Shown here piece by piece: positions 2,996 to 55,965 of a stretch of DNA of 56,747 nt. The stretch covers positions 1 through 56,747 of the forward strand of contig JAIQFX010000021.1 in the NCBI GenBank assembly GCA_020073005.1. Direction: 5' to 3'. The notes under the pieces are model-generated. The model did no database searches and was not told where the DNA came from. It saw only the letters and a list, made by a program, of their open reading frames with translations. Within the stretch, counting starts at the first letter, position 1. Every line of letters begins with the position of its first letter. The position numbers and the translations under genes were made by a program. This stretch comes from Terriglobia bacterium. GTDB lineage: Bacteria; Acidobacteriota; Vicinamibacteria; Vicinamibacterales; CAVVIG01.

Positions 2996-3298
2996 CTATT
3001 TGCGCGGCAGTACCGCGTCTTTGAGCTGCTTCGCGATCCGCGCCTTGACGACAGTCTTGGCGGGGATCTTGATGGCCTCGCCCGTCGCCGGGTTGCGGCC
3101 CATGCGCGCCTTGCGCTTCTGCACGACCAGTTTCACCATCCCGGGCAGCACGAACTCGCCCGAGCGCTTCAACTCTTTCTCGGACAGCGCCGTCAGCTCG
3201 TCGAAAAATTCGCGAGCCTGCGTCCGCTTCACTTCGAAGCGTTCGGCGAAGTGCGAGAAGAGTTCGGATTTGCCCATCCTGCGGGCGTCAGACGACAT
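2996..3298 (-). CDS. HU-family DNA-binding protein
   Basis: This 100-residue protein carries the HU/IHF signature in its C-terminal half: GEFVLPGMVKLVVQKR followed by MGRNPATGEAIKIPAK, the beta arm that intercalates into the DNA minor groove. The N-terminal half (MGKSELFSHFAERFEVKR) is the helical dimerisation part. HU proteins bend and compact DNA and assist replication, recombination and transcription. The start at 3298 is preceded by AAGGGGA at a good distance; an internal ATG seven codons later gives a more standard HU length and cannot be excluded. It is divergent from queF. It could equally be an IHF-like paralogue, since no partner is visible. Confidence 0.95.
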   Translation of the reverse strand: MSSDARRMGKSELFSHFAERFEVKRTQAREFFDELTALSEKELKRSGEFVLPGMVKLVVQKRKARMGRNPATGEAIKIPAKTVVKARIAKQLKDAVLPRK

Positions 3299-6983: not shown

Positions 6984-9900
6984 ATGCTGCCTGGCGTCGA
7001 CGGCCATCTTCTTTCCAGCACGCTCGTTGAGCGTCGCGTCTCCCTGTCGGTCGACACGCTCGTGGCGGAACGCGTTCGCCGTGAGCTCGTCGGTTGGCGC
7101 GAGCGCTGTCGCGCGCTTGGTCCGGCATCATCTCTCCGCGCACTGCTTCAACACGGCGCGGCGCCGCTGGCCGCGGCGCTTGGATTCGATCCGCCGGCCG
7201 CCGTCGAGGCCGCCGGCCCGGCGCTCGCGGCAACGCTCCTCGCCGGCGGACACGCGGTCGCGCTGCTCGTCGCACCCTGGGGCGAACCACTGGATCCGCT
7301 CTGGCGTCTCGCGGTCACACAGGCCCTGAGTCGCGCCTCCAACTGGTGCCTGCTCTTCGACGGCCTGCACCTGCGCATCGTCGACGCCGGACGGCTGTAC
7401 GCGCGGCGTCACGCGCAGTTCGATCTCGATCTCGCGATCGATCACCCGCGCGCGTTCGCCGCGCTCTGGTGCACGGCGCGCGCCTCGTCGCTGACCGCCG
7501 ACGCGGCCGACGCCGGATCGCTTCACGCGCTCGTGGCCGCGTCCGATCGTCATGCGTCCGCGGTCTGCCGATCCCTGCGCGACGGCGTGCTCACCGCGTC
7601 GGGCGACGTGCTGCAGGCGCTCGTCACCGGCCGCCCCGCCGCGCGGCTGCCGCCGGTCGGCGACAGCTTCGAGCAGGCGCTGACGATCGTCTACCGCATG
7701 CTGTTCCTGCTGTTCGCCGAAGCGCGCGCGCTCGTGCCGCTCTGGCATCCGGTCTATCGCGAGAGTTACAGCCTCGAGACGCTCCGCGATCTCGCCGAGC
7801 GCTCCGGCCGCACGCCCGGGTTGTGGGACGCCCTTCGCGCCATGGCGCGGCTGGCGCACGCCGGCTGTCATGCGGGCGATCTGCGCGTCACGCCGTTCAA
7901 CGGCCGCCTGTTTGCGCCGGCGCGGACGCCGCTCGCAGAGCGGCGCGATCTCGACGATGAGGCGGCGCGACGCGCGGTGCTGGCGCTCTCGACGCGTCCA
8001 GCGCCCGATCGCGTCGGCCGCGAGCGCATCGCGTACCGGGAGCTTGGCGTCGAGCAGCTCGGCGCCGTGTACGAAACGCTGCTCGACTACACGCCGCGGA
8101 TCGAGCGCGCCTCGCAGGCGCGCGGCCGCGCGCGGACGCCCTTACGGACGACCGTCACGCTCGAATCGGGATCGGGCGTCCGCAAGGCGACCGGGACGTT
8201 CTACACGCCGCAACCGATCGCCGACTATCTCGTGCGGCGCACCCTCGGCCCGCTCGTGCGCGACGCGACGCCCGACCGCATCTTCCAGCTGCGCATCGTC
8301 GATCCCGCGATGGGAAGCGGTGCGTTTCTCGTCGCGGCGTGCCGGTACCTGGCGGGCGCCTACGAGGAGGCGCTCGTGCGCGCGGGCGGCTGCCATGCGA
8401 GCGATATCGATGACGCCGAGCGCGTGACGATCCGTCGCACCATCGCCGAGCGCTGCCTGTACGGCGTCGATCTGAATCCGATGGCGGTGCAGCTCGCGCG
8501 GCTGTCGCTGTGGCTCGCGACATTGGCGGTCGATCGGCCGCTCAGCTTCCTCGATCACCGGCTGCAGACGGGCGACAGCCTGCTGGGTGCGTGGCTCGCG
8601 AACCTCCGGCATCCACCGGACACGCGCAAGCGCGCGCGGGCCGATGCGGCGCTGCCGAACCTTCCATTGTTTGGCGACGACACGATCGTCGAGGCGTTGC
8701 GCGAGACGCTGCCGATGCGCTTCACGCTCGAGTCCACGCCGAACGACACGCTCGCGCAGGTGCGCGCCAAGGAGCGCGCGTTCGCGGCGCTCACCGCGCG
8801 CGAGGCCGCGCTGTCGCGATGGAAGCGCGTCGCGCATCTCTGGTGCGCGGCGTGGTTCACCGCGTCCGAACGCGCCGCGCCGGCGTCGGCATTCGGCTCG
8901 CTGTCGGATGCCATTCTGTCCGGCCGGAGCGCGCTGCCGGGCCACACGGCGGACAGGCTGCTCGACGCCGCGAACCGTGCCGCGGAAGCGTTCAGGTTCT
9001 TTCACTGGGAACTGGAATTCCCCGAAGTGTTTTTCGACGGCGACGGCCGCCGGCTGCCGCGCGCCGGTTTCGACGCAGTCATCGGGAACCCGCCGTGGGA
9101 CATGATGCGGGCGGATGCCGGCGCGCCCGCCGCGCGCGCGAGCGCCCGCGAGACGGTCGCCGCGATGCTGCGCTTCACGCGCGATGCCGGCGTCTACACG
9201 GCGCAATCCGACGGTCACGCCAATCGCTATCAGCTGTTCGTCGAGCGCGCGATGGCGCTCACGCGGCCGGGCGGCCGATTCGGACTCGTGCTGCCGTCTG
9301 GCCTCGCCACTGATCACGGCAGCGCGCGGCTTCGGCGCCGCCTCCTTGCACGCTGCGATGCCGACGCGCTGATCGGCATCGACAATCACCTCGGCGTATT
9401 TCCGATTCACCGCAGCATGCGGTTCCTGCTGCTGACGGCGTCCGCCGGCTCGCCCACGACGCGACTCGCGTGCCGCACCGGGGTGAGCGACCCGTCGGAG
9501 CTCGAATCGATCGGCGAGGAACCCGCGGACGCCTCGCCCTGGTTTCCGGTGCGCATCACCCCGGCGTGGCTCGAGCGCGTGTCGGGACCCGGACTTGCCA
9601 TTCCTGCCGTGCGTGACGCCACCGACCTCGCCATCATCGAGCGCGCGGCGTCGCTGTTTCCGCCGCTGGGCAGCGAGGCCGGATGGTCCGCGCGTTTCGG
9701 GCGCGAGTTGAACGCGAGCGACGATGCCGCGGCGTTCCGCTCCGATCGGCTCGGGCTCCCGGTGATCGACGGGAAACATCTGGAGCCGTTCCGCGTCCTG
9801 CTCGGGTCCGTGCGGCGCAGCATCGGCGCGAGCGAGGCGCGGCGCCTGTTGCGCGCGGATCGCCACGAGCGCCCGCGCCTCGCGTACCGCGACGTCGCCA

Positions 9901-10331
9901 GCGCGACCAACCGGCTGACGTTCATCGCGGCCGTGCTGCCCGCGCGGAGCGTGTCGACGCACACGGCCTTCTGCCTGCGCGCGCCGCTGCCGCTCCGCGC
10001 GCAGCACTTTCTCTGCGGCCTGTTCAACAGCTTCGTCGTGAACTACCTGGTCCGCCTGCGCGTCACGACGCACGTGACGGCGGCGACGGTCGAGCAGTTG
10101 CCGATTCCGACGGCCGGGGCCGCGCCTGGCGCGTTTGCCGAGATCGCCGCGCTCGCGCACCTCCTGTCGCGCCGTCCCGATCCGTCAGCGCTCGCGCGGC
10201 TGAATGCCAGAGTGGCTGAGCTGTATCAGCTGAGCGTCGCTGAGTTCGAACACGTACTGGAGACCTTTCCTTTGATTCCATCCGAGGAGCGAAAACTGGC
10301 GCTGTCGCTTTTCTCCGGACGAGGGCACTGA
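6984..10331 (+). CDS. Eco57I-type N6-adenine DNA methylase (DrmMI-like)
   Basis: This is an 1115-residue protein with a long N-terminal region, a gamma-class N6-adenine methylase core and a C-terminal target-recognition part. SAM-binding motif I is DPAMGSGAFL (starting about residue 440) and the catalytic NPPW motif is at about 702-705. FYTPQPIADYLVRR just before motif I is typical of Eco57I/type I-like methylases. The N-terminal region keeps the layout seen in type IIG restriction-modification enzymes, but I see no D...ExK nuclease signature in it. It therefore probably methylates without cutting, and the helicase pair may supply the restricting activity. The ATG lies two bases after the upstream stop. 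This is the largest gene of the cassette; the target sequence is unknown. Confidence 0.9.
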   Translation: MLPGVDGHLLSSTLVERRVSLSVDTLVAERVRRELVGWRERCRALGPASSLRALLQHGAAPLAAALGFDPPAAVEAAGPALAATLLAGGHAVALLVAPWGEPLDPLWRLAVTQALSRASNWCLLFDGLHLRIVDAGRLYARRHAQFDLDLAIDHPRAFAALWCTARASSLTADAADAGSLHALVAASDRHASAVCRSLRDGVLTASGDVLQALVTGRPAARLPPVGDSFEQALTIVYRMLFLLFAEARALVPLWHPVYRESYSLETLRDLAERSGRTPGLWDALRAMARLAHAGCHAGDLRVTPFNGRLFAPARTPLAERRDLDDEAARRAVLALSTRPAPDRVGRERIAYRELGVEQLGAVYETLLDYTPRIERASQARGRARTPLRTTVTLESGSGVRKATGTFYTPQPIADYLVRRTLGPLVRDATPDRIFQLRIVDPAMGSGAFLVAACRYLAGAYEEALVRAGGCHASDIDDAERVTIRRTIAERCLYGVDLNPMAVQLARLSLWLATLAVDRPLSFLDHRLQTGDSLLGAWLANLRHPPDTRKRARADAALPNLPLFGDDTIVEALRETLPMRFTLESTPNDTLAQVRAKERAFAALTAREAALSRWKRVAHLWCAAWFTASERAAPASAFGSLSDAILSGRSALPGHTADRLLDAANRAAEAFRFFHWELEFPEVFFDGDGRRLPRAGFDAVIGNPPWDMMRADAGAPAARASARETVAAMLRFTRDAGVYTAQSDGHANRYQLFVERAMALTRPGGRFGLVLPSGLATDHGSARLRRRLLARCDADALIGIDNHLGVFPIHRSMRFLLLTASAGSPTTRLACRTGVSDPSELESIGEEPADASPWFPVRITPAWLERVSGPGLAIPAVRDATDLAIIERAASLFPPLGSEAGWSARFGRELNASDDAAAFRSDRLGLPVIDGKHLEPFRVLLGSVRRSIGASEARRLLRADRHERPRLAYRDVASATNRLTFIAAVLPARSVSTHTAFCLRAPLPLRAQHFLCGLFNSFVVNYLVRLRVTTHVTAATVEQLPIPTAGAAPGAFAEIAALAHLLSRRPDPSALARLNARVAELYQLSVAEFEHVLETFPLIPSEERKLALSLFSGRGH

Positions 10332-10348
10332 GGCGACGGAGAACACAG

Positions 10349-10753
10349 ATGGATAAGCCACGGAGACTCGGAGACTCGGAGTTGAGAGAAATAGATAAGA
10401 TCACTGAACGAATTATCGGAAGAGCTATCGAGGTGCACCGAGTACTCCGGTGTGGCCTCTTTGAATCGCTCTATCGTTCGGCGCTCTCGATCGAGTGTGA
10501 TTCCGCCGGTCTCGTCTATGAGCGAGAGGTACGCGTACCGGCGGTTTACAAGGGACGCCTGCTCGGCACGTTCCGAGTCGACTTTATCGTCGAGAACGAA
10601 GTGATCGTTGAGATCAAGAGCGTCGAACGCATGACTCCGGTCTTCGACGCCCAGGTGATCACGTACCTTCGGCTGACTGGCAAGCACGTGGGATTGCTGA
10701 TCAACTTCAACTCCCGTCTTTTGAAAGACGGAATCAAGCGCTTCATCCTGTAG
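10349..10753 (+). CDS. GxxExxY family protein
   Basis: This 134-residue protein has the family's eponymous segment as CGLFESLYRSAL (the first Gly-x-x-Glu-x-x-Tyr) and a PD-(D/E)XK-like pattern, FRVDFIVENEVIVEIKS, about 45 residues later. The family has no established function; the Asp...Glu-x-Lys pattern suggests nuclease ancestry. The first residues (about 3-10) are encoded inside the left arm of an inverted repeat that also flanks the gene on its right. A TTG at 10382 (codon 12) would start exactly at the conserved domain and may be the original start. The codons look less GC-biased (AATAG, TTTATC) than those of the neighbours, consistent with transfer. Confidence 0.88.
   Translation: MDKPRRLGDSELREIDKITERIIGRAIEVHRVLRCGLFESLYRSALSIECDSAGLVYEREVRVPAVYKGRLLGTFRVDFIVENEVIVEIKSVERMTPVFDAQVITYLRLTGKHVGLLINFNSRLLKDGIKRFIL
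10355..10377 (+). repeat. Left arm of 23-bp perfect inverted repeat flanking the GxxExxY gene
   Basis: The arm begins AAGCCACGGAGACTC and contains two tandem GGAGACTC octamers. Its exact reverse complement is at 10771-10793. It lies inside the 5' end of the GxxExxY reading frame. Confidence 0.95.
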
Positions 10754-10770
10754 CGGCGTTCTTCCCCTCA

Positions 10771-10793
10771 GAGTCTCCGAGTCTCCGTGGCTT
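10771..10793 (-). repeat. Right arm of 23-bp perfect inverted repeat flanking the GxxExxY gene
   Basis: It starts 17 bases after the GxxExxY stop and is the exact reverse complement of 10355-10377. The 12 nt GCGGCGTTCTTC that precedes it (10753-10764) recurs at 31205-31216, just inside the right arm of another element. Confidence 0.95.
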
Positions 10794-10858
10794 CTTCTCC
10801 TCCGTGCCCTCCGCTCCCTCGGAGGTCTCGGTACGCATGGTATATTCGCTCGCCCCGG

Positions 10859-12394
10859 ATGCCCAACTACGGGTTCGCGATCGATCTCCGAAAATGCATC
10901 GGCTGTCACGCCTGCACGATCGCGTGCAAGGCGGAGCATCAGATCCCCGTCGGCGTCAACCGCTGCTGGGTCAAGACCGTCGAAGAAGGCACGTTCCCGG
11001 CGACGCGGCGGCTCTTTTTCCCGGTCCTCTGCAATCAGTGCGGCGACGCGCCGTGCGTCAGCATCTGCCCGACCAACGCGCTCTTCAAACGCCGCGACGG
11101 TATCGTCGATCTGCACGGCGACTCCTGCATCGGCTGCCGCGCGTGCATGGTCGCGTGCCCGTACGATCAACTGTTCATCGATCCCAACACGCACACCGCC
11201 GAGAAGTGCAACTTCTGCGCGAATCGCGTCGAGAACGAGCTGCTGCCCGCCTGCGTGAGCGTCTGTCCCACTGAGTGCCGCATCTTCGGCGACCTCGACG
11301 ATCCGACGAGCGCCGTCGCGCGCATCGCGGCCGACGCGGCGGCCGACGTCCGCAAGCCGGAGAAAGGCACGGCGCCGAAGGTCTTCTATCTCGGCGCCTC
11401 GGCCAGCGTGCTCGAACCGGAAGCGGCGGTCCGTCCCTTCATCTATAAGGAAGGACAGGTCCGGCTCCGCCCGCTCGGATCGCCGTCGCCCGACCCGTCG
11501 CGTCCGGGCGACGCGCGCGTCGACTACGACACGCCGCACGCCAAGCCGTGGGGCCTGGACATGGCGATCTACCTGCTCACGAAAGGCATCGGCACCGGCA
11601 CGCTGCTGGTCAGCGCGGTGCTCCGGCTGCTCGGCGATCGCTCGACGCTCTCCGGTCTCGCCGGACCGGCGATCTCCCTGCTCTTCATCGTCGCGACCGC
11701 CGCGATCCTCGTCGTCGATCTCGAGCGGCCCGAGCGCTTCTACTACATCCTCATCCGGCCGAACTGGCGATCGTGGATGGTCTGGGGCACGTACTTCCTC
11801 ATCGGCCACGGCGCGATCGGGACGCTGTGGATCGCCGCGTCGTGGTTCGGATTCACGGGTGCGCTCGACGTGCTCGTGTGGCCGGCGATCGCGATGTCGA
11901 TTCTGGCGACGTGCTACACGGGATTCCTTTTCGCGCAGGGACTCGCGCGGGATTTGTGGCAGGGGCCGCAGTCCGCGGTCGCGCTGCTCGTTCAGGCCGT
12001 CGCCGAGGGCGCGGCCGTGCTGCTGCTGGTCGAGCGGTTCGGGTCGCTGACAATCGCGGGCGCTTCGACGTTGACGCTCGAGTGGGCGCTCGGCGGCGCG
12101 GTCGCCGCGCATCTCGCGTTCGTGATCGTGGAAAACCTGATCCTGCGGAGCGCGACGCGTCATCACGCGCTGGCCGTGTCGGCCATCCGCCGCGGCCCGT
12201 TCGCGCGGCAGTTCTGGGGCGGCGCGCTCGCGTGCGGCGCCATCGCGCTGCTGGCCGTGGCCGCCGCCGGCGCGGGCACTGAAGTTGTTTCGCGAAGCGG
12301 CCTGCTGCTCGCCGGCGCCGTCTTCGCGCTCGTCAGCAGCTTCGCGTGGGAATGGGTCTGGGTCGAAGCGGGACAAAGTGTCCCGCTTTCATGA
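10859..12394 (+). CDS. Fused 4Fe-4S ferredoxin / NrfD-type membrane subunit of a molybdopterin oxidoreductase
   Basis: The start at 10859 (MPNYGFAIDLRKCIGC) is where family homology begins, although the frame is open further upstream. The first about 190 residues are a PsrB/DmsB-like iron-sulfur subunit with four cysteine groups (CIGCHACTIACK, CNQCGDAPCVSICP, CIGCRACMVACP, CNFC...CVSVCP), enough for four 4Fe-4S clusters. From about residue 225 the protein becomes a polytopic membrane domain of the NrfD/PsrC type (about eight helices), which exchanges electrons with quinone. These are normally two proteins; here they are one 511-residue chain. It should connect the catalytic subunit encoded next to the quinone pool. 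The 3' end holds a perfect hairpin and a tandem-repeat element. Confidence 0.92.
   Translation: MPNYGFAIDLRKCIGCHACTIACKAEHQIPVGVNRCWVKTVEEGTFPATRRLFFPVLCNQCGDAPCVSICPTNALFKRRDGIVDLHGDSCIGCRACMVACPYDQLFIDPNTHTAEKCNFCANRVENELLPACVSVCPTECRIFGDLDDPTSAVARIAADAAADVRKPEKGTAPKVFYLGASASVLEPEAAVRPFIYKEGQVRLRPLGSPSPDPSRPGDARVDYDTPHAKPWGLDMAIYLLTKGIGTGTLLVSAVLRLLGDRSTLSGLAGPAISLLFIVATAAILVVDLERPERFYYILIRPNWRSWMVWGTYFLIGHGAIGTLWIAASWFGFTGALDVLVWPAIAMSILATCYTGFLFAQGLARDLWQGPQSAVALLVQAVAEGAAVLLLVERFGSLTIAGASTLTLEWALGGAVAAHLAFVIVENLILRSATRHHALAVSAIRRGPFARQFWGGALACGAIALLAVAAAGAGTEVVSRSGLLLAGAVFALVSSFAWEWVWVEAGQSVPLS
12366..12388. repeat. Perfect 10-bp-stem hairpin at the 3' end of the ferredoxin-NrfD gene
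   Basis: AAGCGGGACA, a 3-nt loop (AAG) and TGTCCCGCTT form a palindrome inside the last codons, ending four bases before the stop codon. It could act as a terminator-like structure or be a captured REP unit that supplies the C-terminal residues. Confidence 0.85.
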
Positions 12395-12492
12395 TTTGAG
12401 GATATGAGGATGTGAGGATCTGAGGATTTGAAGCCGGGGCGAGGCGAGCGATTCTTCACTTCCTCACATCCTCACATCCTCACATCCTCAAA
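12393..12492. repeat. Inverted tandem-octamer element
   Basis: The left arm has five 8-bp units of consensus GATNTGAG (12393-12432), starting inside the upstream stop codon. A 28-bp GC-rich core ending ATTCTTCACT follows. The right arm has four units of TCCTCAMA (12461-12492), and its last base is the A of the next gene's ATG. The arms can pair into a long hairpin. It replaces the whole intergenic region, including the ribosome binding site position. Confidence 0.93.
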
Positions 12493-15233
12493 TGACAATG
12501 TTCAAAACTCACCCCGATCCGTCGCAGTGGGACGACTTCATCGATTACGAGTCGACCAGTTGGCCGAGGAAAGATCGCCGCCACTACTGGATCATTCCGA
12601 GCGTCTGCTTCAACTGCGAGTCGGCGTGCGGAATCCTGGCGTACGTCGACAAGGAGCAGCTGACGGTCCGGAAGATCGAAGGCAATCCGCTCCATCCCGG
12701 CAGCCGCGGCCGTACCTGCGCGAAAGGCGTCGTCACGCCGAACCAGCTCGAGGATCCGGACCGGATTCTCTATCCGCTCAAGCGCGACGGCGAACGCGGC
12801 TCCGGCAAGTGGACGCAGGTCTCGTGGGAGGAGGCGCTCGACGAGATCGGCGGACGTATCCGGAAAGCGATCGTCGAGAACCGGCGGCACGAAATCATGT
12901 ACCACGTCGGCCGGCCCGGCGAAGACGGGTACGCCAATCGCGTCCTGCAGGCGTGGGGCGTCGACGGCCACAACAGCCACACCAACGTCTGCTCCTCGTC
13001 GGCGCGGCTCGGACATTTTCTGTGGTGCGGCGACGATCGTCCGTCGCCCGACTACGCCAACGCGCGGACGATCCTGCTGCTGTCGTCGCATCTCGAGACC
13101 GGCCACTACTTCAACCCGCACGCGCAGCGCATCATCGAGGGCCAGTCCAACGGCGCGACGCTCATCGTGATCGATCCGCGGCTGTCGAACACGTCGGCCA
13201 AGGCCGACGTCTGGCTGCCCGCGTACTCGGGCACCGAAGGCGCGCTGCTGCTCGCGATGGTGAAGATCCTGCTCGACGACGATCTGTACGACCGCGAGTT
13301 CGTGCGCACCTGGGTCGACTGGCGCGGCTACCTGCACGCCGAGCGGCCGGATCTCGCGATCACGTTCGACCACTTCATCGCCGCGCTGAAAGATCTGTAC
13401 GCGACGTTCACGCCGGAATTCGCGGCCGAAGAGACCGGCGTCGACGCGGCGCAGATCGTCGAGGCGGCCCGCGCCATCGGCCGCGCGCGCGGGACGTTCA
13501 GCACGCACAACTGGCGATCGGCCGCCGCCGGCAACCTCTGGGGCTGGCAGATCACGCGCTGCCTGTATCTGCTCGTCGTGCTGACCGGTTCAGTCGGCAC
13601 GAAGGGCGGCGTCGGATTGCACCTGTCGAACAAGTTCGTGCCGAAGCCGCCGACGACGCCCGCGCCGGCCGAGTACTGGAACGAGCTGCTGTTCCCGCGC
13701 GAGTACCCGCTGGCGCACTTCGAAATGAGTTTCCTGCTGCCGCACCTGCTGAAGGAGAACCGCGGCAAGCTCGACGTGTACTTCACGCGCGTCTACAACC
13801 CGGTGTGGACGAACCCGGACGGCTTCTCGTGGATGGAGATGCTGACCGACCCCGAGAAGATCGGCCTGCACGTCGCGCTGACGCCGACGTGGAGCGAGAC
13901 CGCGTGGTTCGCCGACTACGTCCTGCCGATGGGCCTCGGCACCGAGCGCCACGACACCATGAGCCAGGAGACGCACGCCGCGCAGTGGCTCGGCTTCCGC
14001 CAGCCGGTGCTGCGCGTCGCGCGCGAGAAGCGCGGCGAGACGATCCGCGCGACCTACGAAGCGAATCCCGGCGAAGTGTGGGAGGAGAGCGAATTCTGGG
14101 CGGCGCTCACGTGGCGCATCGATCCGGACGGAGCGCTCGGCATCCGCAAGCATTTCGAATCGCCGAACGAACCCGGCACGCCGGTGACGATGGACGAGTA
14201 CTACGGGTGGATGTTCGAACATTCGGTCCCGGGTCTGCCGGAAGCCGCCGCGCGCGAACAGCTCACGCCGCTCGCATATATGCGGAAGTACGGCGTCTTC
14301 AAAGTCAAAGACAACGTCTACACACCGTACGAAGCGCCGCTGTCGAACGACGCGCTCGCCGGCGCGACGATCGATGACGCGCAGGCGCTCGTCATCAAGG
14401 ACGGCAAGGCCATCGGCCTCGTCGTCGACGGGGTCGCGGTTTCAGGATTCACGACACCGTCACGCCGCCTCGAGTTCTTCTCGCAGACGCTCGTCGACTG
14501 GGGCTGGCCCGAGCATGCGGTGCCGCGCTACGTGCCGGGCCACGTGCACTGGCGCGATCTCAAGCCGCAGGACGGCGAGTTCGATCTGCTGCCGAACTTC
14601 CGCCTGCCGACGCTCGTCCACACGCGATCGCCGGTGAAATGGCTGTACGAAATCTCGCACGACAACCCGCTGTGGATCGCGACCGCGGACGCGCGCCGCT
14701 ACGGCGTCGCGACCGGCGATCTCGTCAAAGTGCGGACGCGGATCGGCTACTTCGTCACGCGGGCGTGGGTCACCGAAGGAATTCGACCCGGCGTCCTCGG
14801 CATGTCCCATCACCTCGGACGCTGGCGTCTGCACGAGGAGAAGGGCAACCGGAACGCGTCGGCGCTCGTGACGATCGATCGCCAGGGGACGGGCTACAAG
14901 GTGACGCAGGTGCACGGGGCGCAGCCCTTCACCAGCAGCGATCCGGACAGCGCGCGGATCTGGTGGAGCGACGTCGGCGTGCACCAGAACCTGACGTTTC
15001 CCGTGCAACCGGATCCGGTGAGCGGCATGCACTGCTGGCACCAGCGCGTGACGCTCGAACGGGCGGAACCCGGCGACCGTTACGGCGACATCTTCGTCGA
15101 CACGGCCAAGTCGCACGAGGTCTATAAGGAATGGCTGGCGATGACGCGGCCGGCGCCGGGACCCGGCGGTCTGCGCCGCCCGCTGTGGTTCGACCGCCCG
15201 ATGCGCCCCGCGCCAGCCGTGTACACGCTGTAA
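12492..15233 (+). CDS. Molybdopterin (bis-PGD) oxidoreductase catalytic subunit
   Basis: This is a 913-residue protein of the DMSO-reductase superfamily. An N-terminal 4Fe-4S site is formed by Cys39, Cys42, Cys46 and Cys76 (CFNCESAC ... RTCAKG). Cys167 in TNVCSSSARLGH is the likely molybdenum ligand. The molybdopterin dinucleotide-binding domain occupies the C-terminal part. No Tat signal precedes the cluster, so the enzyme should face the cytoplasm, unlike periplasmic PsrA/PhsA/TtrA. The combination of a cytoplasmic catalytic subunit with ferredoxin and NrfD partners recalls sulfite dehydrogenase SoeABC, but the substrate cannot be read from the sequence; a sulfur, arsenic or other oxyanion reaction is possible. 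The start ATG abuts the tandem-repeat arm; a second ATG follows two codons later. Confidence 0.9.
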   Translation: MTMFKTHPDPSQWDDFIDYESTSWPRKDRRHYWIIPSVCFNCESACGILAYVDKEQLTVRKIEGNPLHPGSRGRTCAKGVVTPNQLEDPDRILYPLKRDGERGSGKWTQVSWEEALDEIGGRIRKAIVENRRHEIMYHVGRPGEDGYANRVLQAWGVDGHNSHTNVCSSSARLGHFLWCGDDRPSPDYANARTILLLSSHLETGHYFNPHAQRIIEGQSNGATLIVIDPRLSNTSAKADVWLPAYSGTEGALLLAMVKILLDDDLYDREFVRTWVDWRGYLHAERPDLAITFDHFIAALKDLYATFTPEFAAEETGVDAAQIVEAARAIGRARGTFSTHNWRSAAAGNLWGWQITRCLYLLVVLTGSVGTKGGVGLHLSNKFVPKPPTTPAPAEYWNELLFPREYPLAHFEMSFLLPHLLKENRGKLDVYFTRVYNPVWTNPDGFSWMEMLTDPEKIGLHVALTPTWSETAWFADYVLPMGLGTERHDTMSQETHAAQWLGFRQPVLRVAREKRGETIRATYEANPGEVWEESEFWAALTWRIDPDGALGIRKHFESPNEPGTPVTMDEYYGWMFEHSVPGLPEAAAREQLTPLAYMRKYGVFKVKDNVYTPYEAPLSNDALAGATIDDAQALVIKDGKAIGLVVDGVAVSGFTTPSRRLEFFSQTLVDWGWPEHAVPRYVPGHVHWRDLKPQDGEFDLLPNFRLPTLVHTRSPVKWLYEISHDNPLWIATADARRYGVATGDLVKVRTRIGYFVTRAWVTEGIRPGVLGMSHHLGRWRLHEEKGNRNASALVTIDRQGTGYKVTQVHGAQPFTSSDPDSARIWWSDVGVHQNLTFPVQPDPVSGMHCWHQRVTLERAEPGDRYGDIFVDTAKSHEVYKEWLAMTRPAPGPGGLRRPLWFDRPMRPAPAVYTL

Positions 15234-29653: not shown

Positions 29654-31147
29654 ATGATGACGCGCGAACAATTCCTGAAGCTGTGTGCGACCGGCACCGT
29701 CGGCGCTCTCGCGGCACCGGTCGCGGCGGCGCGGCAACCGTCGACGCCCCGGGCGTTTCCCGCGGGCGTCACGGCGGCCGTCGTCGCATTCATCCAGCAG
29801 TCGCGCTTCGATCGCATGCCGGCCAACGCCATCGCCGAAGCCAAACGCTGCCTCGTCGACGGCTTCGGCGTCATCCTCGCCGGCGCGACGGTTCGCGGCA
29901 GCGCGATCGTCCGCGACTACGTGAAAGCGACGAGCGCCCAAGGCGCATCGACCGTTCTCGGACCCGATCGGATGTCGGCGGCGGCGGCGCACGCCGCGCT
30001 CGCCAACGGCGCGAGCGGCCACGCGATGGACTACGACGACACGCAGCTTTCGACGACGCCGGATCGCGTCTTCGGACTGCTGACGCATCCCACGGTGCCG
30101 GTTCTGTCTGCGTCGCTCGCGGTCGCCGAACGGCTCGGCGTCTCCGGCCGCGCGTTCCTCGAAGCGTTCCTTACCGGCTTCGAAGTCGAATGCAGGATCG
30201 CGGAAGCGATCAACCCGAAACACTACGTGCGGGGATTCCACAGCACGGGCACGATCGGCGTCTTCGGCGCCACCGCGAGCGCTGCGAAACTGATGACTCT
30301 CACGGGCGCGCAGACGGCGCACGCGCTCGGCATCGCCGCCAGCCTGAGCGCCGGGCTCCGCGTCAACTTTGGATCGATGACCAAGCCGTTGCACGCGGGA
30401 CGCGCGGCGGAAAACGGCGTGACCGCCGCGGAGCTCGCCTCGCGCGGCTTCACCGCGGGCGACGACGGGCTCGACGGCGAATGGGGATTCTTTCAGGTGA
30501 CTGGTGGCGGCGCCGACCTCGCGCGCATCGTGCCGGCACTCGGCCGGCCGTTCTCCATCGTCACGCCTGGCGTCTCGTTCAAGCCGTACCCGTGCGGGTC
30601 GCTCGGGCATCCGACGATGGATGCGATGCTCAAGCTGGTGACCGACCATGACGTGAAGCCCGAGCAGATCGCGCGCATGCGCGTCCGCGCGGGCTCGAAC
30701 ATCCTCAACCCGCTGCGCTACGCGACGGCGAAGACGGAGCTGGAAGCGAAGTTCTGTCTGCCGTTCATGATGTCGAGCATCGCGTTGAGACGCCGCGCCG
30801 GCATCCGCGAGTTCACCGACGAGTTCGTCTCATCCGCGCCGGTGCAGGCGATGATGGCGCGCGTCGAGACGATCTTCGATCGGGACATCGAAGCGCGCGG
30901 CTTCGACAAGATGCGGAGCGTGGTCGAGGTGGACTTGGTGGACGGCCGGAAACTGACGCAGGCGTCCGACGAGCGCTATCGCGGCGGGCCCGAGCGTCCG
31001 TTCACGCGCGCGGACCTGCACGAGAAGTTCACCGACTGCGCGAGCCTCGTGCTGCCGGCCGACCGGATTCAGCGCGCGCTCGACGTCATCGAGTCGCTCG
31101 AGCGGATCGGCGACGTGCGCGAGCTCGTGGAGAATTTGAGGGTGTAA
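29654..31147 (+). CDS. MmgE/PrpD family protein, exported
   Basis: This protein of about 497 residues begins MMTREQFLKLCATGTVGALAAPVAAAR, a Tat-like or Sec signal, and GGAG lies nine bases before the ATG. The body shows MmgE/PrpD (2-methylcitrate dehydratase) features: VDGFGVILAGATVRG, HAMDYDDTQ, FHSTGTIGVFGAT, KPLHAGRAAENG and YPCGSLGHPTMDA. Family members include 2-methylcitrate dehydratase, cis-aconitate decarboxylase and immune-responsive gene 1. An exported member is unusual because the characterised enzymes are cytoplasmic. No propionate pathway genes flank it. The true substrate is unknown. It is divergent from the SDR. Confidence 0.9.
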   Translation: MMTREQFLKLCATGTVGALAAPVAAARQPSTPRAFPAGVTAAVVAFIQQSRFDRMPANAIAEAKRCLVDGFGVILAGATVRGSAIVRDYVKATSAQGASTVLGPDRMSAAAAHAALANGASGHAMDYDDTQLSTTPDRVFGLLTHPTVPVLSASLAVAERLGVSGRAFLEAFLTGFEVECRIAEAINPKHYVRGFHSTGTIGVFGATASAAKLMTLTGAQTAHALGIAASLSAGLRVNFGSMTKPLHAGRAAENGVTAAELASRGFTAGDDGLDGEWGFFQVTGGGADLARIVPALGRPFSIVTPGVSFKPYPCGSLGHPTMDAMLKLVTDHDVKPEQIARMRVRAGSNILNPLRYATAKTELEAKFCLPFMMSSIALRRRAGIREFTDEFVSSAPVQAMMARVETIFDRDIEARGFDKMRSVVEVDLVDGRKLTQASDERYRGGPERPFTRADLHEKFTDCASLVLPADRIQRALDVIESLERIGDVRELVENLRV

Positions 31148-31245
31148 GGATTTGAGGATGTGAGGATCTGAGGATTTGAGGAAGTAAGAACCGGCAGCGC
31201 AAGCGCGGCGTTCTTCAAATTCTCAGATTCTCAGATTCTCACATC
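31148..31245. repeat. Inverted tandem-octamer element after the MmgE/PrpD gene
   Basis: The left arm has five GGATNTGA-type octamers (31148-31187) starting one base after the stop codon. The core starts AAGAACCGG and ends GCGGCGTTCTTC (31205-31216). The right arm has four units of the reverse-complement type TCAGATTC (31214-31245). The core end is identical over 12 nt to the sequence inside the right arm of the GxxExxY cassette at 10753-10764. Confidence 0.93.
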
Positions 31246-43908: not shown

Positions 43909-44000
43909 ATTGGGTAGTTGAGTAATCGGGTAATCTGGTAATCGATGTGTGGGACGGACGGTCCTTCAGTCCATTGTCCATTTACCCAACTACCCAATTC
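43907..44000. repeat. Inverted repeat element with tandem GGTAATC-like units
   Basis: GAATTGGGTAGTTG (43907-43920), overlapping the last DUF1501 codons and stop, is the exact complement of 43987-44000. Between them the left half continues with GGGTAATC-like units of about 8 bp and the right half with TTACCC-type units. The right arm ends five bases before the next ATG. Confidence 0.9.
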
Positions 44001-44004
44001 CCCA

Positions 44005-45135
44005 ATGCACTTGAACGATCTCCCCACTCCTCAGGTTCTCATCGATCAACCACGCCTCTTCGCCAACATCGATCGCGCGCAGCAGCTCGCGACGTCGGCC
44101 GGCGTCGCGCTTCGCCCGCACGCGAAAACGCACAAGTCGCCCGTCGTCGCGAAGTGGCAGATCGAGAAAGGCGCCGTCGGGATCTGCTGCGCGAAGCTCG
44201 GCGAAGTCGAAGCCTTCGTCGACGCCGGCATGGAGAGCGTCAACATCCGGCTGCCGTATCCGGTCAATCCGTTCAACGCCGCGCGGCTGATCGCGTTGAT
44301 GGACCGAGCGACGCTGTCGATCATCGTGGACCACCTCGACGTCGCGCGCGGATGGTCCGACGAAATGCGGCGCGCCGGCCGCGCGCTCGACGTGCTCGTG
44401 AAAGTCGACGTCGGCTTTCATCGCTGCGGGATCGATCCGGCGGGCGACGCGCTCGGATTCCTCCAGGCCGTCGCGGCCATGCCCGGCCTCAGGCTGCGCG
44501 GGCTGCTGAGTCACGCGGGCCACGGCTATCACGCCGCGTCAGACGACGAGCTGCGATCGGTCGCCGCGCGCGAAGCGGAAACGCTGACCGCGTTGCGCGA
44601 CCGCGCGACGAAGGCGGGCATCGGACTCGATGAAATGTCCGTCGGCGCGACGCCGACGCTGCGCTTCAGCGCCGGGCTGCCAGGGATCACCGAGCTGCGC
44701 CCTGGCAACTACGTCTATTTCGATCGGACGCAAGTCGCGCTCGGCGCCGCGACGCTCGACGACTGCGCGTTGACCGTCCTGGCGACCGTCGTCTCGAAGC
44801 CGGCGGCGGATCGCATCATTCTCGACTGCGGGAGCAAGACGCTCACCAACGATCAGGCGCGTGGCATCACGAAGGCCGCGGGCTACGGCGCGGTCCTGGT
44901 TGGCGACGGCGGGTCGCCGCGGCGAGTCGACGAGACGCTCACGATCGAGCGGCTCTCCGAGGAGCACGCCACCGTTCGCGTCACCGGTCGCACGCCCCTG
45001 CAGCCCGGCGATCGCGTGCGCGTGCTCCCCAATCACTCGTGCGTCGTCTCGAATCTCGTGGATGCAGTCCGCTTGATGGAAGACGACCGGGTAATTGACA
45101 CCCTTCCCGTCGCCGCCCGAGGTAGAATCCAGTAG
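44005..45135 (+). CDS. D-threonine aldolase-like PLP enzyme (alanine racemase N-terminal fold)
   Basis: The protein has 376 residues. The N-terminal TIM-barrel domain carries the PLP-lysine motif RPHAKTHKSP (Lys about residue 40), CCAKLGEVEAFVDAG, and VKVDVGFHRCGI. The C-terminal domain has the dsd1-like metal-binding pattern LPNHSCVVSN (His, Cys). These define the D-threonine aldolase/D-serine dehydratase family, which acts on D-beta-hydroxy amino acids with PLP and a divalent metal. The ATG lies five bases after the inverted repeat, with no clear Shine-Dalgarno. A BMC shell gene follows after three bases, so the enzyme may produce a volatile aldehyde (acetaldehyde from D-threonine) near a shell protein; that is inference. 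Confidence 0.9.
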   Translation: MHLNDLPTPQVLIDQPRLFANIDRAQQLATSAGVALRPHAKTHKSPVVAKWQIEKGAVGICCAKLGEVEAFVDAGMESVNIRLPYPVNPFNAARLIALMDRATLSIIVDHLDVARGWSDEMRRAGRALDVLVKVDVGFHRCGIDPAGDALGFLQAVAAMPGLRLRGLLSHAGHGYHAASDDELRSVAAREAETLTALRDRATKAGIGLDEMSVGATPTLRFSAGLPGITELRPGNYVYFDRTQVALGAATLDDCALTVLATVVSKPAADRIILDCGSKTLTNDQARGITKAAGYGAVLVGDGGSPRRVDETLTIERLSEEHATVRVTGRTPLQPGDRVRVLPNHSCVVSNLVDAVRLMEDDRVIDTLPVAARGRIQ

Positions 45136-53972: not shown

Positions 53973-53986
53973 GGAAGCTCCTGGGA

Positions 53987-54032
53987 ATGTCAGAGTTCAG
54001 AATTCAGATTTCAGATTCTAGATCTGAAATCT
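53987..54032. repeat. Tandem CAGANTT repeat with a perfect 11-bp hairpin
   Basis: Four CAGANTT units of 7 bp are followed by AGATTTCAGAT and, after a 5-nt loop, its exact complement (54006-54032). The right arm ends on the stop codon of the following minus-strand gene. Confidence 0.88.
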
Positions 54033-55887: not shown

Positions 55888-55923
55888 GAACTGAGAAGTG
55901 AAAAGGAAGAAGTCAGGCAGAGA

Positions 55924-55965
55924 ATCTGAAATCTGACGTCTGAAATCTGAAATCTGAAATCTCGA
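55924..55965. repeat. Tandem 7-bp repeat (ATCTGAA type)
   Basis: Six units of consensus RTCTGAM in period 7 lie downstream of the glycine-zipper gene. No inverted partner is seen. It is the same word family (AGATTTCAGAT) as the 54-kb hairpin in the other orientation. Confidence 0.88.

Follow-up and report, generated by a model that had tools for sequence, protein, structure and literature searches.

What does it mean that a small gene lies exactly between the two arms of a perfect inverted repeat, and does the framed unit move? The question is raised by a GxxExxY gene in the window, that is, the whole 56,747-nt stretch of DNA analysed here, which is contig C78 of the host assembly (5.86 Mb, 179 contigs). 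An earlier note on this DNA had proposed that gene and repeats form a mobile cassette whose product acts on the repeats.

A nuclease-family gene between inverted arms

The features at the locus are listed below.

6984 to 10331, plus strand: upstream neighbour, Eco57I-like adenine methylase
10349 to 10753, plus strand: GxxExxY gene, PD-(D/E)XK nuclease family, 134 aa (profile matches, alignment of 49 members, structure model)
10355 to 10381, plus strand: left arm, tandem octamers AAGCCACGGAGACTCGGAGACTCGGAG, within the 5' coding region
10767 to 10793, minus strand: right arm, the left arm inverted (perfect part 10771-10793)
10862 to 12394, plus strand: downstream neighbour, 4Fe-4S/NrfD fusion protein (start in the ORF list, GTG at 10787)

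We found that positions 10355-10377 and 10771-10793 were exact reverse complements over 23 bp and that the arms, when extended, matched over 27 nt at 96% (10355-10381 and 10767-10793). In each arm the octamer GGAGACTC, or its complement, occurs twice. When 10332-10861 was shuffled 500 times with dinucleotides preserved, the longest inverted repeat obtained was 15 nt; these shuffles and the framing survey described below ruled out chance or an artefact as the origin of the repeat. The predicted start codon of the gene was located just outside the left arm, so the left arm codes for part of the GxxExxY N-terminus. The gene ends with a TAG stop at 10751-10753, 17 nt ahead of the perfect right arm. 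The GC content of the ORF was 53.6%, compared with 71.5% and 68.4% in the two neighbours. The perfect repeat, the two octamers per arm, the placement of both arms and the deviating base composition had been described in the earlier note, and all were reproduced here.

The 439-nt unit encodes GxxExxY and no transposase was found in it, a difference from IS and MITE elements. Two antisense ORFs in or across the unit (66 and 716 aa) matched no Pfam family, and the window gave no Rfam match at gathering scores. Small S23/four-helix-bundle ORFs within terminal inverted repeats are described for 23S rRNA intervening sequences in excerpts from PMC4990558. The likeness to these elements lies in the small ORF inside terminal inverted repeats; the unit in the window differs in protein family and in repeats and lies outside rRNA, as the Rfam search placed it in no 23S rRNA gene and its protein is GxxExxY, not S23.

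In a profile search, the ORF at 10349-10753 matched TIGR04256 (GxxExxY) with 133 bits and PF13366 (PDDEXK_3), its sole Pfam match, with 126 bits. The residues D78, E88-x-K90 and Q102-xxx-Y106 were invariant in the 49 aligned members, which bears out the D...ExK-like nuclease pattern pointed out before. An AlphaFold2 model built on the 49 sequences had a pLDDT of 95.1, and on this model we are confident that GxxExxY adopts the PD-(D/E)XK fold. The best solved structure was 4ic1 (SSO0001), which we take to be a Cas4 (Z 11.6 over 98 residues); the following matches reached Z values of 8.2 at most, with the Holliday-junction resolvase Hjc at 8.1. Foldseek also placed 4ic1 first (E 5.7e-4, TM 0.48), with lambda-type exonucleases close behind. 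The QxxxY motif presumably marks the RecB/Cas4-like nuclease family, and by its modelled fold and this motif GxxExxY would belong with these nucleases, although a shared fold does not imply a shared activity. It differs from 4ic1 in that identity was 17%, that the nuclease-core part alone was matched and that GxxExxY is housed in repeats. A sequence search of the PDB returned no significant relative (best match RelE, E 0.15), and no GxxExxY function was found in openly licensed PubMed Central text.

The predicted Cas4/RecB-like fold and the adjoining adenine methylase would both suit an anti-phage or anti-plasmid nuclease, with chromosomal hairpins as a by-product or as a self-marking signal. 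Given that the other copies in the host genome seemingly have housekeeping neighbours, we regard such a defence role as very improbable.

Framing across the GxxExxY family

Four GxxExxY genes were found in the host genome, and all four lay between inverted arrays of short tandem units. The arms were 34 nt at 91% at locus L001 and 34 nt at 85% at L003, and L002 had a weaker pair with a score of 44. For a survey of the family, loci were taken from the genus, from the phylum and, over many phyla, from one genome per species, and the 220 nt upstream of each gene were aligned with the reverse complement of the 220 nt downstream. Eleven loci that were duplicates or degenerate orthologues, domain matches of at most 250 nt and matches with short flanks were omitted. 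No other duplicates were removed from the two collections: orthologous loci (L003/L005 and L004/L006, for example) stayed in, and some loci contributed two domain hits. In this set, 127 of 159 GxxExxY genes were framed at a score of at least 30; of 1590 placements drawn at random within these loci 15 scored as high, and of 429 other ORFs 9 did. At a score of at least 42 the numbers were 82/159, 3/1590 and 3/429. Scores below 30 were obtained for 32 of the 159 genes. Two archaeal loci were framed as well (L105, Methanosarcinales, 43; L106, Methanophagales, 35), and a third (L072, Methanoperedens) scored just 24. Framing is thus a general property of the GxxExxY family.

The arms were built from closely related units. 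CRCN(A/G)A(G/T) units were present in 107 of the 115 loci scoring at least 34, with CACAGAG, CACGGAG and CGCAGAG as the commonest, and unit starts were mostly 8, 9 or 10 nt apart (74, 76 and 23 cases). CAC or AAC often stood just before the units (29 and 26 loci), and 4 of the 115 loci were pyrimidine-first. The GxxExxY gene therefore fills the loop between two tandem arrays in inverted orientation, which consist mostly of CRCNRAG units. In 158 loci chosen for GxxExxY there were 134 arm pairs, of which 88 enclosed GxxExxY, 40 a short loop and 6 something else; 39 arrays were unpaired. Inside-out neighbours within 200 nt were not rare at these loci, with 11 compared with the 40 short-loop pairs.

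Gene-less hairpins of like arrays

The earlier note had suggested a search for the arms with and without the gene, and this search revealed gene-less hairpins of like units both in the host genome and dispersed in genomes of the phylum, most of which carry GxxExxY. The arm-loop-arm pattern of CACRGAG units gave 40+27 matches in the host genome (G000), 134+151 in G311, 152+122 in G275 and 181+125 in G211; these matches overlap, and the figures are not element counts. In the four genomes the 932 overlapping purine-first matches compared with 13 inside-out ones (0 in G000, 0 in G311, 6 in G275 and 7 in G211), and most of the inside-out places listed were two elements back to back. A control in which the arm-loop-arm pattern was read backwards gave 1 match in all. 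The same control of the inside-out pattern itself gave 4, 74, 0 and 20 matches in G000, G311, G275 and G211, because this pattern, once reversed, fits purine-first hairpins whose units are spaced at 8 nt. The purine arm nearly always comes first, so the same hairpin is found on both strands.

In the host genome, 14 places were chosen because they resembled the gene arms, and the scan showed hairpins at 11 of them; this selected set demonstrates existence and not frequency. Several of these gene-less elements had the form AACCACGGAGGACACGGGGGACACGGAGG-loop-complement, and the odd unit CACGGGGGACAC was common to the gene arms of L001 and, in either arm, several of the gene-less elements. The gene-less elements L304 and L305 were of the CCACGGAGACTC or CCACGGAGACAC type, as are the gene arms in the window (CCACGGAGACTC/AC type). 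Single-strand folding of three gene-less elements and of the hairpin at 12390-12495 in the window gave z values of -6.9 to -9.4. The window contains three further octamer elements.

12394 to 12493: hairpin without a gene, built from a different octamer, TGAGGATG; its arms span 12394-12433 and 12454-12493, and it begins at the NrfD stop
31137 to 31241: second pair of octamer arrays, one of TGAGGATG (31137-31182) and one of TCAGATTC (31215-31241)
43922 to 44006: octamer pair GTAATCGG / CCAATTAC, arrays 43922-43944 and 43978-44006

At sites orthologous to 12394-12493, we found hairpins of the TGCGGAAT type in G001 and G002, a one-armed GGGGATTC in G015 and AAGGCAGG in G023; no hairpin was found at this site in G012.

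The hairpins of G311 need a separate account. At the places read (L278-L297), CACAGAG hairpins lay within MITE-like units, many with the ends (T/C)AGGACTTACGC; 5-bp target duplications (AAATA, TTTAG, GTGAT, CAAAA, AAAGA, TGAGA) were seen by eye at 6 of 20 units, and identical loops were found again at several places. Another transposase may have moved them. The ends and duplications point to a MITE of another system, which rules out the G311 copies as proof of movement driven by GxxExxY. They also bring in an alternative for the family at large, in which hairpins spread by other means (through an HUH RAYT, through MITEs mobilised by a DDE transposase, or through template switching in replication) and GxxExxY is a passenger that tolerates or profits from the site between the arms. 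The units of G311 with their TAGGACTTACGC ends and 5-bp duplications fit this alternative, as does the absence of TAGGACTTACGC ends from L156, the one read of the four GxxExxY loci of G311. In the loops of CRCNRAG pairs, by contrast, no family other than GxxExxY recurred (88 of 134, with 40 short and 6 other, in loci chosen for GxxExxY). With the associations described in the next section also speaking against a passenger, we consider this alternative unlikely.

Association between the gene and the repeats

Among the 396 genomes sampled from the phylum, 138 contained GxxExxY and 78 a triple CACRGAG array, and 67 had both; 55 of the 57 genomes with at least three CACRGAG arrays carried GxxExxY. 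With the wider CRCVRAG triple, 233 genomes had at least one array and 114 had at least ten. GxxExxY was found in 102 of these 114 repeat-rich genomes compared with 36 of the 282 others (Fisher p ~4e-49, with kinship ignored and the threshold of ten arrays set after the counts were seen). When the threshold was one array, the numbers were 125 of 233 compared with 13 of 163 array-free genomes (hand count). In G190, G375, G165 and G140 array counts are less clean, as these were among the genomes with many control matches.

There were exceptions on both sides, indicating that neither the gene nor the repeats strictly require the other. Fewer than ten arrays were found in 36 GxxExxY genomes, 13 of which had none. 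Conversely, 12 of the 114 repeat-rich genomes gave no PF13366 gene above the cut-off, a point in favour of a passenger; these 12 are draft assemblies, with 70-820 contigs and a completeness of 64-98%. The wider PD-(D/E)XK family was considered as a substitute in these 12 and was rejected, a single sub-threshold match being obtained.

Spacing and sequence of the repeats also followed the gene. The spacing of listed dispersed arrays fitted that of the local gene arms (on average in 0.68 of the arrays, compared with 0.32 when genomes were permuted; p 0.005) in the 10 usable genomes out of 15 that had both a GxxExxY locus and listed places, the other 5 having no triple array in the fetched gene arms. 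Five listed places were the genes' own arms and were omitted, and the dispersed arrays are the listed places alone. The fit was nil in G196 and G090. Furthermore, protein similarity tracked unit similarity over 107 loci (Mantel rho 0.38, reached in 0 of 999 permutations) and in the many-phyla set alone (rho 0.28, n=55, 0 of 999), statistics which, like the other associations, ignore phylogenetic kinship. Co-occurrence, spacing match and correlation of protein with unit all argue against a passenger. They also provide a statistical tie for the earlier proposal that the product acts on the repeats; cutting itself we infer.

As a separate observation, six genomes of genus g75 (G128, G218, G225, G270, G357 and G372) had GxxExxY matches of lower scores that resembled one another (best E 1e-33 to 1e-36) and 0-1 array each. 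Their GxxExxY is perhaps an orphan or repurposed subfamily.

Alleles at orthologous sites

The site of L001, which from its sequence context we take to be the recJ-accA junction, was readable in 23 genomes of the family. Both arms and a full GxxExxY domain were present in G000, G020, G012, G018, G008, G022, G021 and G009. In G002 the two arms were present and the reading frame was broken; G023 had a full domain and lacked the right arm. Arms with no detectable GxxExxY domain were found in G017 and G003, each with one gene end by eye. Gene fragments were present in G001 and G010, and arm remnants were seen by eye in G013 and G019. The site was empty in 6 of the 23 genomes (G011, G004, G006, G005, G015 and G025), with 20-43 nt between the two genes. 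The comparison with relatives that had been suggested thus yielded both empty sites and arms on their own.

At the site in the window, GxxExxY lay beside the same methylase in G001, G022, G007, G004 and G011, so that, with the host, the Eco57I-like methylase adjoins GxxExxY in six genomes of the family. A truncated copy was found in G020 and a gene-less hairpin of CGCAGAA units in G023, and neither gene nor hairpin was seen in G015. The earlier note had held that a gene always present at one site, with no empty alleles, would speak against a mobile cassette; the relatives do share the site, yet the alleles of G023 and G015 lack the gene.

Gene-free alleles are in keeping with a mobile cassette, but the gene-bearing unit does not look like one that moves now: it keeps the same methylase neighbour, and the best of 26 within-genome GxxExxY pairs, with at most four copies compared per genome, had 82% identity, with between-genome pairs at up to 97%. 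For the copies compared, recent transposition of the gene-bearing unit was rejected on these numbers; recent duplicates may exist among other copies. Target-site duplications, looked for as the earlier note had advised, were resolved around none of the gene-bearing units. We conclude that the multiplying entity is the gene-less hairpin and not the gene-bearing unit. The protein in the window was 60% identical to its orthologue in G001, with neighbours at 82-91%, and 75% identical to that in G022, with neighbours at 71-87%; faster evolution of GxxExxY is therefore not uniform.

The arms changed jointly between species. At the site in the window they were CACGGAGACTC in the window and CACAGAGTCAC in G001. 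At three orthologous sites, the left half matched the right half of its own species more closely than the right halves of the others (reached in 0 of 20000 permutations at each site), with within/between scores of 34.4/17.6 at site A (12 species), 31.9/19.9 at site B (11) and 25.4/17.3 at recJ (23). The test covers all species; an earlier run on hairpin-bearing species only was biased. The results demonstrated that both arms of one site are renewed together and faster than the flanks. Template switching without an enzyme could also produce this co-variation. At site B (L300, about 3140-3280, and its orthologues), the hairpin seemingly overlaps the 5' part of a coding gene, whose signal peptide may be encoded in part by the right arm.

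Turnover of this kind bears on a regulatory explanation. Paired repeats of similar type are already known: the Geobacter metallireducens genome paper of 2009 describes, in the excerpts at hand, pairs of tandem-octamer sites (class 2, TCTCCGTS[Y]) whose two members are on different strands and vary in their distance, interpreted as possible global-regulator or IHF/HU sites (PMC2700814). By comparison of the consensus in the legend with the arms, TCTCCGTS[Y] is the complement of (R)SACGGAGA, as in CACGGAGA here; a link to GxxExxY does not appear in those excerpts. Following that interpretation, paired arrays here could be sites for DNA-bending or global regulators, or transcript-end hairpins, which GxxExxY, as a regulator or a nuclease, would use as operators; by eye, some elements do seem to start directly at stop codons. 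Nevertheless, one site in relatives may hold the element, other units or nothing, and the unit differs between orthologous genes. Element turnover and unit differences are better accounted for by a mobile repeat than by a fixed operator, and we think it improbable that the arrays are regulatory sites of this sort.

A proposed REP-like partnership

The framed genes and the scattered hairpins together suggest an undescribed partnership between a nuclease and a repeat family. In our reading, to which we give a probability of about 55%, GxxExxY is a nuclease resident in a repeat system of the REP kind. In the mechanism that we propose, the palindrome would be extruded on single-stranded DNA, for example on the lagging strand, and the Cas4/RecB-like nuclease would recognise the tandem units and cut the DNA in the hairpin or close to it. 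If the break were repaired with a second hairpin copy as template, the hairpin would be converted or duplicated, and with repair from other copies both arms of one site would change together. A PD-(D/E)XK nuclease on its own cannot join DNA. Internal deletion would give rise to gene-less derivatives, and the gene itself would stay in place, be inherited mostly vertically and persist because it is housed in one hairpin. Cutting or spreading of hairpins by GxxExxY would be the activity behind the pattern.

REP repeats are short palindromes tagged with GTAG or CGTC. GxxExxY resembles the REP-associated RAYT genes in several respects: it is flanked by two inverted repeat copies (127/159 loci), its presence tracks the abundance of the dispersed repeat (102/114 compared with 36/282 genomes, kinship ignored), protein and flanking repeats co-vary (rho 0.38 and 0.28), and orthologues stay in place while both arms change. 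For RAYT genes, the retrieved passages of PMC2817692, which argue along similar lines, report a position between inverted REPs, presence that tracks REP abundance, co-variation of protein and repeats, and orthologues that keep their position while both flanking repeats change; parts of PMC3733652 and PMC3116915 give further background on REPs and REPINs. The differences are that GxxExxY is a PD-(D/E)XK protein and RAYT an HUH (Y1) tyrosine transposase, that the arms, in place of one tagged palindrome, consist of CRCNRAG units in tandem, mostly separated by spacers of 1-3 nt, and that two archaeal loci are framed too. By analogy, the GxxExxY-hairpin system would work like REP/RAYT without being a member of it, as both the enzyme and the repeat type differ.

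More broadly, and tentatively, we may be dealing with a second, independently evolved REP-type system that has no transposase and occurs in bacteria and archaea. Here a Cas4-like nuclease would recognise hairpins of tandem 7-mers and cut them on single-stranded DNA, and repair would drive both spread and arm-to-arm conversion, comparable to a homing endonuclease with a hairpin for a target; other tandem-repeat hairpins (heptamers with four-helix-bundle genes) would be parallel systems, each with its own partner protein. If this is true, REP-like symbiosis between a repeat family and a nuclease encoded in the chromosome has evolved two or more times, each time with an enzyme of different origin, which would help to account for different tandem repeats at one site in related species. 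Framing gives the widespread GxxExxY family a concrete, testable candidate substrate, and it gives the large class of octamer hairpins, interpreted as regulatory in the excerpts of PMC2700814, a candidate partner protein. No paper linking such repeats to GxxExxY was found among excerpts of openly licensed PubMed Central text.

Other tandem-repeat hairpins

TIGR02436 (S23-like) loci L201-L230, from genomes of the family, showed inverted tandem repeats of TCAGCTG, GGGATTC/A, TAGGCCTGG and others. Six of these 30 loci were cut by contig ends and omitted; 15 of the remaining 24 were framed at a score of at least 30, compared with 5 of 240 controls, and 13 of 24 at a score of at least 38, compared with 0 of 240. 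TIGR02436 was considered as a second gene of the CRCNRAG hairpins and ruled out, as the arms shown have other units. These four-helix-bundle genes are probably not nucleases, and their framing by other hairpins at 13 of 24 loci is a point in favour of GxxExxY as a passenger; TIGR02436 genes and their hairpins may form a system in parallel, with a protein of their own. In the window itself, heptamer arrays of TCAGATT / AATCTGA were seen at 53985-54023 and 55923-55962, resembling Geobacter class 3 (MTYCTGA) as given in the excerpted text.
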